Origin: Lewinellaceae bacterium
Lineage (GTDB): Bacteria > Bacteroidota > Bacteroidia > Chitinophagales > Saprospiraceae
Assembly (NCBI GenBank): GCA_029976695.1
Contig: JARQTN010000250.1
Location: forward strand, 48,595 to 91,862
DNA length: 43,268 nt
Reading direction: 5' to 3'
The position numbers were made by a program, and so were the translations under genes. Position 1 is the first letter of the stretch, and each line of letters opens with the position of its first letter. The notes under the pieces are model-generated. The model was not told where the DNA came from. It was given only the letters and a program-made list of their open reading frames with translations, and ran no database searches. This document shows positions 1,734 to 21,222 of this stretch, piece after piece.

Positions 1734-4352
1734 TCACCTCAACAGGGTCACATTGCCGGTATAGTTACGGACAAATCCATCCAGAAACCGGATCCTGAAA
1801 TTGTAAAAATAAACACCGGTAAGCGCTGGCTGCCCGGCAAATCTGCCATCCCACCCGGTCTCCGGCTCATTCAGGATCGCCTGGCTGGATGCAAAGACAA
1901 GGTTCCCCCTGCGATCATATATTTCCAGGTTTTCAAGGACTCCAAAATCAGGGCTGAAAATCCCGAAAAAGTCGTTTTTCCCATCACCGTTCGGGGTAAA
2001 GACATTCGGTACAAAGTAATTGCGGGCAAGGTCCACAAACACCTTGATCGTGGCGGAGTCCGAACAGACGCCATTTGTTGTAAACACCTGATAGTATGTT
2101 GATTCCAGTGGCCTGGCTAATGGAGCGATGCAATTACGACAAGACAGCGATGAATCCGGGCCACCGATCCATGAGAGGGACAGTGAATCCAGGGCGTTTG
2201 TGATCAGTGGCTCAAGGCGGATGGAATCACCAAGCCGGATGGCTTCGGTCTCCTTGTCAAACCATACGTCGATCGGGGCACCTGGAACGACCTCAAAGAA
2301 GAGCCAGGATTCCTCGCATCCGTTGAATACCTTGACCTCATAAGTCCCGATTCTATCGACCTCTATTGCCCTGGCTGTCTCACCGCCCATCCATTCAAAC
2401 CTCGTTCCGTAAGGCGAGGCATCCAGTTCGATGGTGTTACCAGCACAGAGCACTCTTTCAAGGTACAGGCTGTCTGCTTCCACGCCGAGCACATGCGTAT
2501 CGGTTGAATCAAAACCTGTCGTGCGCGGATCATCGGATACCCTGAACGTACCCAGCTCAAAAGGAAGGTTATCAAGCCTTGCCTGGTTCGGGTATTTTCC
2601 CGGGTCGATATCTGTCACTTCGACAAGAAAATGGATCGTATCGATGCCCACGGGAATGGTCATCCCGCTGATCTGGATCACCCCGGGCAGGGAACTCTCA
2701 TCAAGGATACCGCCATATGGGTTTTTCAACACATCCAGGTAAAAAATTCCATCAGGTAACGAATCGGTAAAACTGATCCCCCTTTGTTCCACGCCAGTTG
2801 AATTATCAATCACAAACTGGTAAATGATCTCGGAACAGGGAAACGTGGAATCTGGCAAAGGTACATGGTCCATATCCAGACGGAACGGGCAGGAAGCAAC
2901 CGTGACCTCGAATTCCACAAACAACTCTGCACACCCGGTGCGTGCGCGCAACGCATACAAACCGGCTTCGGATACCACAATGGATGGTTCAGCACTTCCG
3001 TTGCTCCATGAAAAGGCAGTACCATAGATACTTCCATCAAGTTCAAGGCTCTGGCCGGAACAGATGAATCTCGTCAAATAAAGGCTGTCACTTTCCAGCC
3101 TCGTGACTGTAACAGGCGTGCGGTCACCTTCTCCCGGGGTTTTCGGGTTGTCAGACTGCACATTCCCGCCAAGTGTTTGAGGCAAGCCCCTGATTTCACC
3201 CTGGCTGAAATATACCCCGCCATCGATATCCTCCTCGATGAAGACACGCACTTCGATCGAATGGATACCCGGCGGGATTACGAAGCTGGAAATCTCGATC
3301 TCGCCCGTACCTGCATCATAGGTATCATTGCCACCTAAGGTCGGGTGCGAAATGCCTTCGAGCCTGAACCCAGGATTCAATCTCGTTCGAAAAATCAGGT
3401 TTGACTGGGTGTTCCCCGTCGCATTCGCAATCGTATAGGTATAGGTCATTTCTTCACACGGAAATACATTCTCCGCCGAGGGCTGATTGCGCATCTTGAC
3501 CGTATAGGGGCATGCCGTCAAATCTTCAATAAAAGCGACCGGGCCTGCAGCCCACGCCATTTCTTCACCGTTCTCCTTGTTGATCCGGAACAACCCGCTG
3601 GCTACCCCAAACTGGGTGGTACCGATCCCGTAGAGATCACCGAAAGCATCGAAATAAAGTGACTGGATCTCCCTGAAATCCTCGATTGGCCAAAGACCGG
3701 TAATGCTGTAATTGGTCAGGTTCAACTTGAGCACATGCCGCTCCCTGCGATCGTACATAAACAAAAAATCGGCATATGGATCAAAGGCAATGTCCTCAAT
3801 GTCAAAAATATTTGAAAAACCGACCTCTGTCACATCGTAATCCCCAGTTAAAAGGTCGATGATAAAAAGAGCCCTGTCCTGCCCGAACCGGGATCCGATC
3901 ACATAGAAGTTGTTCCCGTCCGGTGATATTTCACCCGCTTTATAATCAAGATCCGAGGGAAGTCCGGTGATTGACGGCAAGTTGGTCATCCCGCCATCTG
4001 CATAGTAAAGGTGCAGTAGGTTCGTCCCTGATTCGAGTACATACACTTCACCTGTCGTCCTTCTGAACCCGATGGCAACCGGGGTCGTGAATGATACGGA
4101 ATCCATTTCGGGAAACTGCAGGGCATTGTTTCCGGGATTAATCCGGGCTTCCGCAAAGACCCCGTTCACATGATCGTAGTAAATCCGCTGGCAGGTACAG
4201 TCAAATGCAGACTGTGCCCTGACTGTCATGGAAAAGCCAAAACAGCAGGCAATGAGCCAGGCGATTCTGCATAATTCAATTGTTGGCCGTGAATTCACAG
4301 GTACGAAAATAAAGGATTGCCATGAATCGGATGGTTTACGCTTCCATGACAT
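1734..4352 (-). CDS. Large secreted protein with T9SS type B (gliding-motility) C-terminal domain
   Basis: 872 residues. An N-terminal hydrophobic stretch (about 30-46, ending VRAQS) is a signal peptide preceded by an unusually long polar lead; a GTG codon giving VNSRPTIEL is an alternative start. Residues about 50-290 read like a beta-propeller of the kind that reports values during parsing of surface proteins. Two similar modules of roughly 190 residues follow, each with a FPCxEhxYxhxIxNxTG-type start (about 295 and 500) and a later C(S/A)GxxhELD segment. The last 90 residues (NVFTPNGDGKNDFFGIF ... GWDGRFAGQPALTGVYFY) are the CHU_C/gliding-motility-associated domain that directs export by the type IX system. 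The ATG lies inside the end of the upstream phosphoesterase gene (17-base overlap), implying translational coupling. Likely surface or extracellular; ligand unknown. Confidence 0.88.
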   Translation of the reverse strand: MSWKRKPSDSWQSFIFVPVNSRPTIELCRIAWLIACCFGFSMTVRAQSAFDCTCQRIYYDHVNGVFAEARINPGNNALQFPEMDSVSFTTPVAIGFRRTTGEVYVLESGTNLLHLYYADGGMTNLPSITGLPSDLDYKAGEISPDGNNFYVIGSRFGQDRALFIIDLLTGDYDVTEVGFSNIFDIEDIAFDPYADFLFMYDRRERHVLKLNLTNYSITGLWPIEDFREIQSLYFDAFGDLYGIGTTQFGVASGLFRINKENGEEMAWAAGPVAFIEDLTACPYTVKMRNQPSAENVFPCEEMTYTYTIANATGNTQSNLIFRTRLNPGFRLEGISHPTLGGNDTYDAGTGEIEISSFVIPPGIHSIEVRVFIEEDIDGGVYFSQGEIRGLPQTLGGNVQSDNPKTPGEGDRTPVTVTRLESDSLYLTRFICSGQSLELDGSIYGTAFSWSNGSAEPSIVVSEAGLYALRARTGCAELFVEFEVTVASCPFRLDMDHVPLPDSTFPCSEIIYQFVIDNSTGVEQRGISFTDSLPDGIFYLDVLKNPYGGILDESSLPGVIQISGMTIPVGIDTIHFLVEVTDIDPGKYPNQARLDNLPFELGTFRVSDDPRTTGFDSTDTHVLGVEADSLYLERVLCAGNTIELDASPYGTRFEWMGGETARAIEVDRIGTYEVKVFNGCEESWLFFEVVPGAPIDVWFDKETEAIRLGDSIRLEPLITNALDSLSLSWIGGPDSSLSCRNCIAPLARPLESTYYQVFTTNGVCSDSATIKVFVDLARNYFVPNVFTPNGDGKNDFFGIFSPDFGVLENLEIYDRRGNLVFASSQAILNEPETGWDGRFAGQPALTGVYFYNFRIRFLDGFVRNYTGNVTLLR

Positions 4353-5109
4353 GCAGATGTGTATCGTTCAATACAGATTCACCAGACCAGCTATAGGCTG
4401 ACAAGCGGCCGGTACGATGAACGCAGGAATCCAGGCAGCAAATATTTCCGGGCAGAATCAAGGGACCATCCGACATGCAGTAGTGCCCGAAAAAAAGCAA
4501 TTTCTCCGATGGATCGTATAGCGGGAGATCAAGGTTCCACCACCGGAGCCGCAACAGGGACATTTCGAGGCCATTCTGTAAAATATGCTCATCCGGAGCA
4601 GGGTGGTAATAAGGACCCTTGAGCAATCGGAAAGCAGCCCTTTCCTCCACACTTCCTTCCCCTATTTGCCGCCAGTCCGGATGGATCCTGCGATATGCCT
4701 CCAATATGCTGATTGCCCGCGGGTCCCAGAAGGCATGTACAAGCCGGAAATGTTCGAACTCGATCCAGAGCGGCAGTGTCATCACCCATTCCAGGTCCTC
4801 CTCCATGCGTGGGTAGTCCTCGCCATACGCATCCAGTGTATCCTGGATCGCTGGTCCATTGCCGGTTATCCACGCCCATTCATGATTTCCGATGATGCAG
4901 GCGCAATTGCCTTTTTGAGCCATTTTCCTGACGATGGAGACTGTCCTCCTGATTTCAGGCCCCTTGTTGATCAAGTCACCTAAAAAAAGCGCTTTCCTCA
5001 GGTCATTTCCCCATATGCCATCAGGGTCCTGTTCATAACCAAGTTGCCCAAGCAGGTTTTCCAAAAGTGCTGCCTGCCCGTGCACATCACCGATCACGTC
5101 ATAGGTCAT
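4336..5109 (-). CDS. Calcineurin-like metallophosphoesterase (PrpE/ApaH-like)
   Basis: 257 residues with the full set of metal-binding motifs of serine/threonine phosphatase-like and diadenosine tetraphosphatase-like enzymes: GDVHG at 7-11, GDLINKGP at 44-51, GNHE at 74-77, a histidine in LVHA at about 125 and GHY at about 208-210. The family uses two metal ions to hydrolyse phosphoesters; substrates range from bis-nucleosyl tetraphosphates to phosphoproteins, and the sequence does not decide which. No signal peptide, so cytoplasmic. Start ATG 5109 overlaps the end of the S9 peptidase gene by four bases (ATGA), and its own end overlaps the next gene by 17 bases, so the three genes look like one operon. 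Confidence 0.87.
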   Translation of the reverse strand: MTYDVIGDVHGQAALLENLLGQLGYEQDPDGIWGNDLRKALFLGDLINKGPEIRRTVSIVRKMAQKGNCACIIGNHEWAWITGNGPAIQDTLDAYGEDYPRMEEDLEWVMTLPLWIEFEHFRLVHAFWDPRAISILEAYRRIHPDWRQIGEGSVEERAAFRLLKGPYYHPAPDEHILQNGLEMSLLRLRWWNLDLPLYDPSEKLLFFGHYCMSDGPLILPGNICCLDSCVHRTGRLSAYSWSGESVLNDTHLHVMEA

Positions 5110-7031
5110 GACGCAACCGTGTCGACGTCAACAGTCATTGTTTCAAGGCGCTTCCGGATGTTTGGTGGCATCTCTTCCTGGTACCTGCCATGGAGGTGAC
5201 TGGCAAAAAATGCTTCAATCGCTGCAATCATGGCCATATTGTTCACCGGATCGCGGAAACCGTGCCCCTCATCTCCGGCGAGCAGGTAGGCAACGGGATA
5301 GCCCCGGTCACGAAGTGCGGCAACGATCTGGTCAGCTTCCGCCTTCTTCACGCGCGGGTCATTGGCTCCCTGCACGACCATGAGGGAAGCCTTGATCTTG
5401 TGTGCATGAAAAAGGGGCGAACGTTCTGTCAATAAAGCCCGGCCTTCCTCCGTTTCCGGATTGCCGACCCGCATATATAACATCCTTCTGCCAGACTCCC
5501 AGTAGGCTGGCATTGAATCCAGCAGGGTCATCAGGTTTGAAGGCCCGACAATATCCACACCTGCTGCAAAGACATCAGGCGTAAAGGCAAGGGCCGCAAG
5601 GGTCGCATAACCGCCGTACGATCCACCCATGATCCCGATGCGGTTCATTTCCGCATACTTTTTCTGTGCCAGGTAGTGTGCTGCCATCGTGATATCATCC
5701 TGCATCTTTTTGCCCCATTCGAGGTTGCCAGCATTGAGAAACCTTTTACCAAATCCCGTTGAGGACCGAAAATTGGGTTGCAGGACAGCATATCCCCGGT
5801 TCGCCAGGAATTGTGCATATGGATGATATCCGTAAGAATCCCGTGCCCAGGGACCACCGTGTACAAGCACGATACCGGCGCCGGACCGGATCCCCTCATC
5901 GGGCAGGGTCAGGTATGCCTGGATCTCAAGGCCATCCGTACTCCTGTACCGGATACTTTCCACTGTGGCGAGCTGCTCAACAGGGAGATCGGGGCGCGGA
6001 TGGAAAAGGAATTTCAATTCCCCTGAGCTGCGGTCATACAGGTAGGCAGCACCCGGATCCCTGTCATCATAGGCACGGATGAGCCAGATATCCTCACGGA
6101 GTGTCGCGGATACAATGGATATCATCTTTCCATCGAGCAATTCGCCAATCCTGTTAAAATCGCGTTCAGTCTCGTCGTCAAAAAAGTAATACCTGGGCTT
6201 GTCCGTCTCATACATCGTATACAAGAGCTTTTCAGTCTCATCCGCAAAGTCGATATGTGTCAGGTCAGATTCCCCCAGCGGGTCAGCATGTACATATGTT
6301 TCAGTACCGGTATCCAGATCGTAGAGGATGAGTTCGGTTTTATCCCGTTCACCCTGGTTTGTCATCACATACACCTGGTTTCCGTCAGGATGAAATTTTA
6401 ACGGGGCCACCTGTTCTTCCAGGCTAGATGAAAACAGCAGCGTGAGTTCACCTTCATCGAAAGAGAACACATCACTTCCTCCTGCTGCATTTGGTTTTGA
6501 TACGATCCGGAGCTGGTCGAGCGCATCAAACAGGTAATGCTCGATCTGTTCTTCATTCTGATAGAGCAGCGTCTGTACTCCTGTTGAGATGGACAGTTTG
6601 TAGAGATCATGCCATGCCTGGTCCCTGTGGTTCAGGCCGATGTACATGATGTCCGGGTCAAGCTTGGACCTCCTGTAGATCATGGCCCTGATGCCTTCAT
6701 GTGGAGTGAGATTGACCGCCTCCGGGATTTTTCCTTCCTCCAGATCCTCGATGCAAATCCTGTAGATACAAAAATCCTCATCCCCGTCCTTGTCCTGCAC
6801 ATACAGGATATACCTGGCATCCCGGCTCCAGAAATAGCCCGGGATCGGCCGCCTGTCATCCGAAATGGGCACGGCCTCCTCAAACGGGGCATCTGCCGGC
6901 TTTACCCAGATATTCCGCACGTCATGGTAGGGTTTGATAAAACTCAGCATCCTCCCGTCCGGTGAGATGCGGGCACCTGTAATTTCGGGGTTGCCAAAAA
7001 ATACCTTTCTGTCAATAATGGGGATTTCCAT
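5106..7031 (-). CDS. S9 family prolyl oligopeptidase-type serine peptidase
   Basis: 641 residues from ATG 7031; an in-frame TTG at 7055 adds eight poorly fitting residues, so the ATG is preferred. The N-terminal about 350 residues are a seven-bladed-propeller-type region (repeated D-x-D-G and Y-D-L-D-T-G strands). The C-terminal alpha/beta-hydrolase domain contains the oxyanion segment HGGPWARDSYGY, the nucleophile elbow GGSYGGY (Ser about 471), an acid in QGANDPRV (Asp about 558) and the catalytic His in DEGHGF (about 590). These enzymes cleave short peptides; the propeller gates access. No signal peptide is visible, so probably cytoplasmic. The 5' leader is long and contains an apparent attenuator (7138-7299), so peptide-dependent or translation-dependent control is possible. 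Confidence 0.92.
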   Translation of the reverse strand: MEIPIIDRKVFFGNPEITGARISPDGRMLSFIKPYHDVRNIWVKPADAPFEEAVPISDDRRPIPGYFWSRDARYILYVQDKDGDEDFCIYRICIEDLEEGKIPEAVNLTPHEGIRAMIYRRSKLDPDIMYIGLNHRDQAWHDLYKLSISTGVQTLLYQNEEQIEHYLFDALDQLRIVSKPNAAGGSDVFSFDEGELTLLFSSSLEEQVAPLKFHPDGNQVYVMTNQGERDKTELILYDLDTGTETYVHADPLGESDLTHIDFADETEKLLYTMYETDKPRYYFFDDETERDFNRIGELLDGKMISIVSATLREDIWLIRAYDDRDPGAAYLYDRSSGELKFLFHPRPDLPVEQLATVESIRYRSTDGLEIQAYLTLPDEGIRSGAGIVLVHGGPWARDSYGYHPYAQFLANRGYAVLQPNFRSSTGFGKRFLNAGNLEWGKKMQDDITMAAHYLAQKKYAEMNRIGIMGGSYGGYATLAALAFTPDVFAAGVDIVGPSNLMTLLDSMPAYWESGRRMLYMRVGNPETEEGRALLTERSPLFHAHKIKASLMVVQGANDPRVKKAEADQIVAALRDRGYPVAYLLAGDEGHGFRDPVNNMAMIAAIEAFFASHLHGRYQEEMPPNIRKRLETMTVDVDTVAS

Positions 7032-7137
7032 ACGTTGGTTGATTCTTTGATGCAAAACAAAAGAATCTTCAACGCCCAGAAAAGTTTAATGAAAAGAACC
7101 TTTGCGAATTTTATGCATTTTCCGGGCAGGGTTGGAT

Positions 7138-7176
7138 AAAAAAATGGCCCCGTCATCACTTCTGATGCCCGGGGCC
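7138..7176 (-). terminator. Intrinsic terminator of a leader (attenuator) ahead of the S9 peptidase gene
   Basis: On the minus strand GGCCCCG (7176-7170) pairs with CGGGGCC (7152-7146), and an inner stem TGATG/CATCA caps a four-base loop. Seven U residues (7144-7138) follow after one A, the classical Rho-independent layout. It stands 107 bases before the peptidase start and after a strong promoter-like element, so it would end transcripts before the peptidase unless the competing hairpin at 7171-7196 forms. Confidence 0.8.
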
Positions 7177-7210
7177 TGAGTAATAAGACTCACCCCTATG
7201 ACTTGAGTCT
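7171..7210 (-). promoter_or_regulatory. Mutually exclusive hairpins: anti-antiterminator versus antiterminator
   Basis: Reading the minus strand, AGACTCA (7210-7204) can pair with TGAGTCT (7192-7186). Alternatively GGGGTGAGT (7196-7188) can pair with ACTCA (7181-7177) plus CCCC (7174-7171), with a two-base bulge. The second pairing takes away the CCCC needed for the terminator stem, so the three segments behave like regions 1, 2 and 3/4 of a ribosome-controlled attenuator. Region 1 begins two bases after the stop codon of the leader ORF, so a ribosome paused at the end of that ORF would cover region 1 and favour read-through. Pairings are seen by eye; the switching is inferred. Confidence 0.5.
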
Positions 7211-7211
7211 A

Positions 7212-7232
7212 TCACAATCGAATACTTACCAT
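7212..7232 (-). CDS. Six-residue leader peptide ORF (MVSIRL) with strong Shine-Dalgarno
   Basis: ATG 7232-7230 is followed by five codons and TGA (7214-7212); the next triplet in the same frame is TAG. Eight bases upstream of the ATG sits AGGAGGA (7247-7241), a near-perfect Shine-Dalgarno sequence, which is unusual in this phylum and not seen before the other genes here. The codons are GTA AGT ATT CGA TTG; CGA is usually a rare arginine codon. The peptide is too short for a folded product, so its likely job is to place or stall a ribosome next to the hairpins at 7171-7210. It is not the start of ribosomal protein bS16, although the first residues look similar, because no continuation exists in any frame. 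Confidence 0.5.
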   Translation of the reverse strand: MVSIRL

Positions 7233-7264
7233 TTCTATCTTCCTCCTGATCCGCAATTGCGATA

Positions 7265-7272
7265 CAAATATA
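7265..7272 (-). promoter_or_regulatory. Bacteroidota-type -7 element (TATATTTG) of the leader transcript
   Basis: The minus-strand sequence TATATTTG is a perfect match to the Bacteroidota -7 consensus TAnnTTTG. It lies about 18 bases upstream of the Shine-Dalgarno of the six-codon leader ORF. A clear TTG at -33 is not present; that region is instead filled by a palindrome (7277-7299). The expected transcript would start near 7257 and end near 7138 if terminated. Confidence 0.55.
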
Positions 7273-7276
7273 TGGG

Positions 7277-7299
7277 GTTAGTGTTGTACAGACACTAAC
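7277..7299. promoter_or_regulatory. Perfect 8-bp inverted repeat, operator-like, at the leader promoter
   Basis: GTTAGTGT-N7-ACACTAAC, with perfect arms and a seven-base spacer, ends four bases upstream of the TATATTTG element and covers the -33 region. Position and symmetry are those of an operator for a dimeric repressor or activator. No regulator gene lies next to it, and no second copy was noticed in the window. Confidence 0.45.
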
Positions 7300-7460
7300 T
7301 TTAACGATGATTAACCTATTGCTCAAAATCCTAACTTAACCTTAAGGAAACCAGGGTTTTAGCAAAAGGTAAATAACGGATTTTTAACACCTGAAAGGGA
7401 ACTTCAGGATGCCGGGAAAAATCTCGGGACAAAATCCTGTGAAATGAGTCTTATCCCTTT

Positions 7461-7529: not shown

Positions 7530-8720
7530 TCATGTCCTGAGCCGCAGTGATTGCAACGCCCTGCTGAACTCTTCCCGCATTGCCTCGACAGCAAGCATGA
7601 TCATATCCCGGTCATTGGGAAAAGGAACCGGGTAGATCACGCGCAAGTCATTTTTCTCAAGCGCGCGTTCATCACCTGAATATCGCTGTGCCAAATGCTC
7701 GAAAACGGCATTCGCACGCAAAGGCCTGGATTCGACCATCGTGGATTCTTTCAGATTGATCAGGTTCATCCGCCCACTGATCGATGCCGTTTTCTCCTGA
7801 TTCGTCTGCAGAATAGTAGCTGTTACATCAATCCATTTCGGCTCCTTGATATCATTCCCAAGACTGTCTTTGGCCACATTTCCGTTTTTGTCCAGCACAT
7901 ATCTCCAGCCGTCTTCAACCTCCTTTGTGCGCACGATCTCGCGCTCATGGATCAGGTCCCTCCCGACCTGGATGTAATCCACTTCCAGGACAACCTTGTA
8001 ATCAAGCTCCAGGTCACCGGGCGGATGGGCAATGAACCGTGTCCACCGGTCGTTCAGCCGTGAAAACTGGATGGCCAGAAGTTCCTCCTCGAAAAAGGCA
8101 GGAGTGAAACGGCTGGAATTATCCTGCACATCAATCCACACGCGGGTAATCCCGAGGTTTTCCGCCTCATCCATCAATCTTTCCTTGTCCTTGTAGGTGG
8201 AATAGTATGTTTCTATGCCGGAAAGGGTCAAATACGCACGGCGGGCAGCAAGCTTGTCCCCTTCCCTGGCCATACTGATTTCATCCAGTGCCCTGCTGTA
8301 CAGCAATTGGGCAGCCTTCTCGCGTGATTTTTCGATATAAACCTCCACCCTGATAAAATTGAACGTAGCCTGGTAACCCGCCTCATCCGTCACCGGCAAA
8401 TAAGGTTCAAGGGCCTCCTGCCTGCTTTCAATCCGCCTGGCAAGGGAGAACATGCCCTCCCAGCCCCTCAGGGTACCATCGCGCTCAAGCTGTTCCATCT
8501 TCTTCAGATCCTTCTCCTGCAACCTGTTAAACGCTTCCTCAAGCGCCACGACATATTTCGTTTTATTCCTGCTGCCCTTGATTTTCCGTTTTGTCAGACT
8601 GATCAGCTGTTCATACTTCCCTTCTTCCAGCATGCGTTCTGTTGACCTGCATGACACCAAGAAAATGATCGCGAACGGGACCAGGATCAAGTGGATGCGT
8701 TGTACGGTTTTTTTCATCAT
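7530..8720 (-). CDS. Lipoprotein of unknown function, helical repeat region
   Basis: 396 residues from ATG 8720; the frame is open further upstream, but only a TTG is available there and the signal peptide begins at this methionine. MMKKTVQRIHLILVPF is followed by a hydrophobic core and the lipobox LVSC (Cys about 24), so the mature protein is probably lipid-anchored. Residues about 30-220 are charged and helical, with spacing that suggests tetratricopeptide-like packing (EEGKYEQLISLTKRK, EKAAQLLYSRALDE). The C-terminal half is a beta-rich region with no motif I know. The function is unknown. The gene follows the polyphosphate kinase gene after 101 bases and ends before a terminator. Confidence 0.75.
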   Translation of the reverse strand: MMKKTVQRIHLILVPFAIIFLVSCRSTERMLEEGKYEQLISLTKRKIKGSRNKTKYVVALEEAFNRLQEKDLKKMEQLERDGTLRGWEGMFSLARRIESRQEALEPYLPVTDEAGYQATFNFIRVEVYIEKSREKAAQLLYSRALDEISMAREGDKLAARRAYLTLSGIETYYSTYKDKERLMDEAENLGITRVWIDVQDNSSRFTPAFFEEELLAIQFSRLNDRWTRFIAHPPGDLELDYKVVLEVDYIQVGRDLIHEREIVRTKEVEDGWRYVLDKNGNVAKDSLGNDIKEPKWIDVTATILQTNQEKTASISGRMNLINLKESTMVESRPLRANAVFEHLAQRYSGDERALEKNDLRVIYPVPFPNDRDMIMLAVEAMREEFSRALQSLRLRT

Positions 8721-20175: not shown

Positions 20176-21222
20176 TTGGAAGGAAGATCAAACCTCATCT
20201 ACCGTTTGCGCAACTGGGAATTCTGGCCAGCCTGGCTCACAAATATCCCGGTGGTTGGATTCTGGCTTTTCCAGGCAGTGAAAACCGGTCACCTCTTCTT
20301 TTTTTCTACGGTTAATCCGGGGGCCATGAACGGCGGCTTGCTGGGCAATTCCAAAATGAAGATCCTGGATGCCATCCCGGACAGGTACATCCCGAAATCA
20401 GGCTTGTTCAAAGCCAATGCAGAACGACCCATGATGATCAGGGCTTTCATGCGAAATAACGGCATGGATTTCCCCGTGATTCTCAAACCGGATATTGGTG
20501 AAAGGGGGCTTTTGGTTCAGCGCATCAGGAATTGGGCAGAGCTGGATATTTACCTCAATAAAGCCGGATTTGATGTCATCCTCCAGGAATACGTGGACTA
20601 TGCGCTGGAGGTAACGATCCTTTGTTATACCATTCCCGGAACAGATGAGAAAGGGATCACCTCTGTCTGCGAAAAGGAGTTCCTCCATATTGAAGGGGAC
20701 GGCAGGCGCACGATCCTGCAATTGATCCGGGGGCACGAGCGAGGGCGGCTATATGAACATCTCCTGAAGGCATCATGGCAAGATGACTGGAGCGGTGTTC
20801 CAGGCAAGGGGGAAACGGTGTACCTGCAGCCAATCGGCAATCACTGCAAAGGCACGAAATTCATCAATGCAAACCACCGGATCGACCAGCAACTGGTTGA
20901 TACCTTTACCGGGATACTGGACCAGATGGAGGGCTTTCATTATGGCCGGTTTGACCTACGCTGTGCGAGCTGGGAAAGCCTGCGTGCGGGAAAAGACTTC
21001 AGGATCCTGGAATTCAATGGTGTCAACAGCGAGCCTGCACATGTCTATGATCCGGGATACCCGATCGTGAGAAAATACCGGGATTTTTACAGGCAATGGG
21101 CGCTTATGGCGAGGATCCACCGGGCCCAGGCTACGCAGGGTATCCGGCCCATGAAACTAAGGGATGCAATTCGGCAGGGAAAGAGGTATTTTCAATATCT
21201 TCAGGCCGTCAAATCGATTTAG
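20176..21222 (+). CDS. ATP-grasp protein (D-Ala-D-Ala-ligase-like), substrate unknown
   Basis: 348 residues with a TTG start at 20176; the next methionine falls inside a conserved N-terminal region, so the TTG is needed. Two hydrophobic stretches (about 17-45) precede an ATP-grasp fold: FPVILKPDIGERGLLVQRI (lysine binding ATP), ILQEYVDYALEVTILCY, a central strand with KEFLHIEGDGRRT, GRFDLRC (Mg-binding Asp) and ILEFNGVNSEPAHVYDP at about 275-292. ATP-grasp enzymes join a carboxylate to an amine or thiol through an acyl phosphate. The related membrane-adjacent Bacteroidota proteins have no assigned substrate that I know. It is followed immediately by a LysE-like exporter, so a small amide or peptide product that is exported is a reasonable but unproven idea. 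Confidence 0.75.
   Translation: MEGRSNLIYRLRNWEFWPAWLTNIPVVGFWLFQAVKTGHLFFFSTVNPGAMNGGLLGNSKMKILDAIPDRYIPKSGLFKANAERPMMIRAFMRNNGMDFPVILKPDIGERGLLVQRIRNWAELDIYLNKAGFDVILQEYVDYALEVTILCYTIPGTDEKGITSVCEKEFLHIEGDGRRTILQLIRGHERGRLYEHLLKASWQDDWSGVPGKGETVYLQPIGNHCKGTKFINANHRIDQQLVDTFTGILDQMEGFHYGRFDLRCASWESLRAGKDFRILEFNGVNSEPAHVYDPGYPIVRKYRDFYRQWALMARIHRAQATQGIRPMKLRDAIRQGKRYFQYLQAVKSI

Follow-up and report, generated by a model that had tools for sequence, protein, structure and literature searches.

In the window, that is, the whole 43,268-nucleotide stretch of DNA that was analysed, an intrinsic terminator lies on the minus strand just ahead of an S9 family peptidase gene and is itself preceded by a promoter element, a strong Shine–Dalgarno (SD) sequence and an ORF of only six codons. 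The question raised by this locus was what such an arrangement does in front of a peptidase. According to the analysis, the best single reading was that the S9 peptidase operon has its transcribed leader at positions 7265–7138, which act as a ribosome-mediated transcription attenuator. This reading is plausible and unproven, and its probability was put at roughly 45%. A plain small RNA and an insulating terminator were credible alternatives.

All elements named by the first-pass annotation were found on the minus strand, in the order that it gave. The promoter -7 element TATATTTG at 7272–7265, just outside the start at 7257 given by that annotation, was a perfect match to TANNTTTG, which we take to be the Bacteroidota -7 consensus. 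The promoter scan found this single perfect occurrence of TANNTTTG on the leader strand of the intergenic region. The leader -33 box was weak, and the best candidates, AGTG or TGTC, had 2 of 4 matches. The SD sequence AGGAGGA occupied 7247–7241, with 9 bases between AGGAGG and the ATG of the predicted leader ORF (7232–7212; AUG GUA AGU AUU CGA UUG UGA), which encoded MVSIRL and was followed in frame by UAG. A leader ORF with an initiation signal lay between the promoter and the terminator. A GTG overlapping the leader UGA (GTGA) opened a 19-codon frame that extended into the terminator (7156–7215, minus strand), possibly as a coupled second short ORF.

Three pairings were available downstream of this ORF, all on the minus strand. 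Hairpin 1:2 (AGACUCA/UGAGUCU; 7210–7186), the candidate anti-antiterminator, had 7 bp and an energy of -7.5 kcal/mol alone, and it began at the second base past the leader stop, with one base between. The alternative hairpin 2:3 (7196–7171; -10.4 kcal/mol alone), the candidate antiterminator, was formed by GGGGUGAGU (7196–7188) with ACUCAGGCCCC (7181–7171) through 9 bp and a two-base bulge. The intrinsic terminator 3:4 (GGCCCCG..CGGGGCC) had its stem at 7176–7146 and an energy of -21.1 to -22.8 kcal/mol; the stem was followed by an A and seven T (7144–7138), with which the terminator ended at 7138. The CCCC of the 5' arm of the terminator was common to 2:3 and 3:4, so that the antiterminator and the terminator were mutually exclusive.

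The S9 peptidase gene (5106..7031, minus strand; PF00326, E 8.7e-45) was the first gene past the leader terminator and was separated from it by 106 bases. The solved structure nearest to its product by sequence was 5l8s, an amino acyl peptidase (PDB; E 6.1e-52). On the same strand, a metallophosphatase gene (4336..5109; PF00149) and a gene for a protein with a type IX secretion signal (1734..4352; PF13585, TIGR04131) came next. The phosphatase gene overlapped the S9 gene by 4 bases and the type IX-signal gene overlapped the phosphatase gene by 17 bases, and the three genes are, judging from their arrangement, likely one operon. Because of these overlaps, the leader would govern three genes. 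The upstream operon, on the same strand, consisted of a polyphosphate kinase gene and, directly after it, a gene that matched nothing in Pfam or NCBIfam and ended at 7530. An intrinsic terminator (approximately 7504–7468, minus strand; ATCCGG..CCGGAT with TTTTTATTTATTT; -14.5 to -16.4 kcal/mol) began 25 bases past this stop. Since the upstream operon had its own terminator, the second terminator at 7145 had no obvious duty to it, and the stretch between the two terminators formed a separate unit. This arrangement bears on an alternative in which the hairpin at 7176–7146 merely backs up the upstream terminator as an insulator, and the SD sequence, the ORF and the alternative pairing are products of chance. 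Such an explanation appears unlikely; the upstream operon was already terminated about 330 bases earlier.

Control of the unit may begin at its promoter. A perfect inverted repeat, GTTAGTGT-N7-ACACTAAC (7277..7299; 8-bp arms, 23 bp in all), was taken as a candidate operator. Four bases separated it from the -7 element downstream, and it spanned the weak -33 region, a position which suggests that the leader promoter is also regulated. It was the sole perfect copy in the 4.12-Mb assembly. Five other sites were found there, each with 3 mismatches; a reversed control pattern gave more, at 21 per strand. The frames neighbouring these sites, compared by eye, had no common gene, and the operator idea was dropped.

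In the attenuator reading, the promoter at about 7300–7265, with a protein on the inverted repeat as its probable gate, would initiate RNA synthesis near 7260. Hairpin 1:2 would by default form first, segment 3 would stay free, and RNA polymerase would halt at about 7138 and leave an RNA of about 120 nt. A ribosome that lingers while its P site holds MVSIRL codon 4, 5 or 6 would cover segment 1. Such a pause could be caused by slow decoding of Arg CGA or Leu UUG, by slow termination at UGA-UAG, or by a drug- or peptide-bound ribosome. With segment 1 covered, segment 2 would be held by segment 3 and the CCCC would be withheld from the terminator. The antiterminated transcript would then continue through the genes for the peptidase, the phosphatase and the secreted protein.

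The masking step was modelled with the leading edge of the ribosome 16 nt from the P-site codon, the value given for the start codon of the vmlR uORF in the available text of PMC9226507. Of the 7 nt of segment 1, 3 were masked when codon 4 was in the P site, 6 at codon 5 and all 7 at codon 6, whereas none were masked at codons 1–3. According to equilibrium folding of RNA ending at or just past segment 2, the probability of hairpin 1:2 was 0.87–0.93 without a ribosome. For RNA ending near segment 2, it dropped to 0.12–0.30 when the P site held codon 4 and to 0 when it held codon 5 or 6. Once segment 3 was out, however, the antiterminator 2:3 reached 0.86–0.87 without a ribosome, versus 0.01–0.04 for hairpin 1:2, and once segment 4 was out, the terminator was favoured in every ribosome state tested. 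Because 2:3 outcompetes 1:2 even with no ribosome present and the completed terminator prevails in all states tested, the switch could work only kinetically. In this folding model, hairpin 1:2 would need to persist while about 30 nt are copied, which is a real weakness of the attenuator reading; the probability given above was held at that level because equilibrium folding leaves only the kinetic route. The first-pass annotation had proposed that a ribosome held at the end of the ORF would mask the first segment and allow read-through. The order of the segments and the geometry of codons 4–6 fit this logic, but equilibrium folding gave no separation between the ribosome-on and ribosome-off states.

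The weakness of the first hairpin also bears on another possibility, namely, a conditional terminator in which the short ORF plays no part and a protein or ligand on the leader RNA is in control. For such control, the alternative pairings would be enough by themselves, and hairpin 1:2 is too weak to be the sole gate. However, the strong SD sequence and the stop codon one base before segment 1 would be left unexplained, and no Rfam family matched the region: Rfam 15 had no gathering-level match in the window, and the matches near the leader, three in number (E 0.5 to 2.1), were far below the gathering scores. This possibility was considered improbable.

How often such parts would arise by chance was evaluated at several levels. 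The fold of the whole 120-nt leader had a z of -3.0 and was equalled by 1 of 200 shuffles, a figure to which the terminator contributed much. When only the 35 nt between the leader stop and the terminator were shuffled (n = 2000), a hairpin 1:2 at least as stable was found in 168 shuffles, an antiterminator at least as stable in 85, and both in 17. The leader SD duplex (-10.0 kcal/mol) was the strongest found in the window, the best of the 36 window ORFs of at least 150 codons reaching -7.2 kcal/mol; the most upstream ATG was used for each of these ORFs, and some of these starts may be wrong. Same-strand terminators of -12 kcal/mol or lower within 190 nt upstream of the start were present for 2 of the 36 window ORFs, one being the leader terminator and the other lying at 20326. 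The combination of an SD sequence, an ORF of 2–30 codons and a hairpin of -12 kcal/mol or lower with a U tract was surveyed in 1,263,538 bases from 170 sources, which included the window and excluded other loci of its own genome. This gave 157 candidates with an SD sequence and a short ORF, against a rough background, as the sources had been fetched around other matches, came from mixed phyla and were unsorted into coding and non-coding DNA. Five rows had a terminator, and two of these were the leader site itself. The other three had weaker hairpins (-13.2 to -13.9 kcal/mol), two were on or opposite long frames, and none had a -7 element; only the leader site also had TANNTTTG upstream. The leader site was picked after the sequence had been read, and these rarity figures are therefore overstated.

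The insulating-terminator explanation draws on the same counts, in that both pairings did arise by chance in the 17 shuffles and the initiation string is common. AGGAGGA-N5-10-ATG with a nearby TGA occurred in 49 rows in the genome itself, versus 5 for a reversed control. Besides the row of the window, this survey covered 48 rows, 30 of them as loci and 18 within 16 further stretches, and the sites inspected among these were the 27 distinct ones with an in-frame ORF of up to 45 codons. Twenty-six coincided with an open frame longer than 120 codons on one strand or the other, although the smallest of these frames (L176, 126 codons) may not be a gene; the one site off long frames, L172, had no terminator.

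The reach from promoter to strong terminator, with its seven U, is also what would be expected of an independent small RNA of about 120 nt acting elsewhere. MVSIRL would then be a chance ORF, and the peptidase would have a promoter of its own between 7138 and 7031. A weak candidate for such a promoter, TTGTTTTG, was located at 7060 with TTTT or TTTC upstream, and its score of 8/10 equalled that of the leader promoter. However, little weight attaches to this score, which was common to 10 of the 12 promoter candidates listed. Moreover, this explanation does not account for the strongest SD sequence of the window and its suitable spacing from an AUG, and neither Rfam nor the 398 family genomes, searched with strict filters, yielded a convincing related RNA. 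The small RNA was judged possible and somewhat doubtful.

Conservation of the leader in relatives had been proposed as the check on the first-pass idea, and none was found by three approaches, among genomes that included no member of the same genus. In the first, 7100–7330 was compared by blastn with 59 relatives and the genome itself. Some match at E ≤ 1 occurred in 44 of the 60 genomes, the genome itself included; the foreign matches were at most 35 nt long, with a best E of 0.0027. They were treated as chance, as the part of them that was inspected held no promoter–leader–terminator unit. In the second, a single-sequence covariance model (R1) was run with the stricter filters of Infernal on 398 family genomes, again including the genome itself. 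Matches at E ≤ 1 were obtained in 33 genomes, its own among them, and its own locus scored E 7e-31. The 397 other family genomes yielded no convincing leader, the next best E of 0.04 being at chance level over that many genomes.

The third approach was to examine the DNA upstream of S9 orthologues. An S9 match at E ≤ 1e-100 was present in 93 of 199 family genomes, its own included, with a best foreign identity of 57% there, and 80 of 92 orthologue loci were kept from the contigs of the relatives. The scan took loci with a full-length match at E ≤ 1e-100. The 87 rows included two for the own locus and one, L038, without upstream sequence, so that 84 remained; 83 of these were distinct. The upstream sequences of L125 (genome G004, same family) and L035 were identical. 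A hairpin of -15 kcal/mol or lower with a U-rich tail was found within 120 nt of the S9 start in 4 of the 84 (L120, L123, L065 and L074), and none of the four resembled the leader in sequence. An SD-like hexamer 4–10 nt before an ATG, within 400 nt of the S9 gene, was found in one of the 84, the acidobacterial L034. In six further orthologue upstreams, no terminator of -15 kcal/mol or lower was found within 120 nt of the S9 gene.

Two of the four hairpins belonged to the two species of genus g65 (L120/L147 and L123/L148), whose terminators lay 82 and 53 nt before the S9 gene and were unrelated in sequence. The S9 proteins of L120 and L123 had just 2 extra N-terminal residues. These terminators were rejected as homologues of the leader, since their sequence was unrelated and neither an AUG short ORF nor an antiterminator was found in the 120–130 nt folded. 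That S9 genes elsewhere carry unrelated terminators is in keeping with a plain insulating role. However, the nearest upstream frames of the g65 loci were divergent, and their read-through therefore cannot explain a same-strand terminator there. The g65 terminators before S9 genes give a hint, no more. The g65 intergenic stretches (L147 2070–2440 and L148 1870–2245, in reverse-complemented coordinates) shared a 21-nt block, TCATACGTCAACCCAAAAATA, which, when the opposite strand is read, has the form of a -7 element. At another locus, L206, a near-palindrome, GTTATTGTAATATCTACAATAAG, was observed around 1501, with a hairpin and T tract about 30 bases further on, between divergent frames.

The leader may be compared with known attenuators. 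Like the trp and his amino-acid leaders, it had the 1:2, 2:3, 3:4 layout, and the hairpins of the trp leader rank similarly in energy. It differed from them in that it had no run of regulatory codons, was only six codons long and preceded a peptidase operon. The first-pass annotation had rightly remarked on this lack of a run of one amino acid in the peptide. The lack excludes the classical amino-acid type only, as the vmlR uORF, MIN, likewise has no run. As described in the available part of PMC9226507, the vmlR leader of Bacillus subtilis contains a three-codon uORF, an anti-antiterminator, an antiterminator and a terminator, and thus resembles the present leader in having a very short uORF with an SD sequence and three alternative structures. 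By the same account, however, the vmlR uORF lies inside the anti-antiterminator, whereas the present ORF stops immediately ahead of the hairpin. The vmlR gene encodes an antibiotic-resistance ABCF protein rather than a peptidase, and other Bacillus species have variants of the uORF, whereas none of the relatives searched here had the leader. Within the phylum, the tetQ leader of Bacteroides is likewise under attenuator control, but the available text of PMC5418344 describes attenuation of translation, whereas the control proposed here is of transcription termination. For Flavobacterium psychrophilum, the excerpted text of PMC9723704 infers leader-peptide attenuation ahead of amino-acid operons and counts those of peptidase mRNAs among the structured 5'UTRs. 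Short ORFs in long 5'UTRs were noted for Bacteroides thetaiotaomicron in the portion of PMC7366714 available. A literature search, in which few subscription papers were covered, found nothing on Saprospir leader peptides, on uORF transcription attenuation in Bacteroidota or on leader-peptide attenuation with prolyl oligopeptidase.

For the leader SD sequence, in addition to the -10.0 kcal/mol obtained against the core, a gapped duplex with a longer 16S tail gave -12.0 kcal/mol, for which the letters of the tail were assumed by us and may differ from those of the organism itself. The 16S rRNA was not found in its own assembly or in 40 relatives (41 of 41, near-complete ones included), whereas the same search succeeded in 9 of 14 control genomes; rRNA genes may be absent from the genome collection. 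According to the available part of PMC9976891, Bacteroidia ribosomes do not recognise SD sequences and ribosomes without bS21 gain that ability, which agrees with the first-pass remark that strong SD sites are rare in this phylum. In the same source, the known bS21-responsive gene rpsU has an SD pairing below -13 kcal/mol. The leader SD did not reach that value with either tail. The extended SD of rpsU, which serves bS21 autoregulation, resembles the leader SD as a strong SD used as a regulatory signal in a phylum that normally ignores SD sequences, but it drives the regulated gene itself, whereas the leader SD precedes a six-codon ORF and pairs more weakly. Two bS21 paralogues were present (G000:C250:42909-43067 and G000:C24:7799-7957; L199 and L200), and no strong SD was found near the starts inspected, in contrast to what has been reported for rpsU in the phylum. 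It is conceivable, and very improbable, that in this phylum, where the anti-SD tail of the ribosome is normally hidden, the strong leader SD selects ribosomes with an exposed tail, such as those without bS21, so that the attenuator would report the state of the ribosome instead of an amino acid and couple it to the peptidase–phosphatase operon. If that were true, the operon would perhaps destroy peptides that stall ribosomes soon after initiation.

If the attenuator is functional, Bacteroidota, a phylum in which few strong SD sites occur, would have a ribosome-sensing attenuator of very small size. Furthermore, this attenuator would be placed before a peptidase, unlike attenuators whose targets are biosynthetic or resistance genes. 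It would also offer a simple test of whether an SD sequence can single out a class of ribosomes in Bacteroidota.
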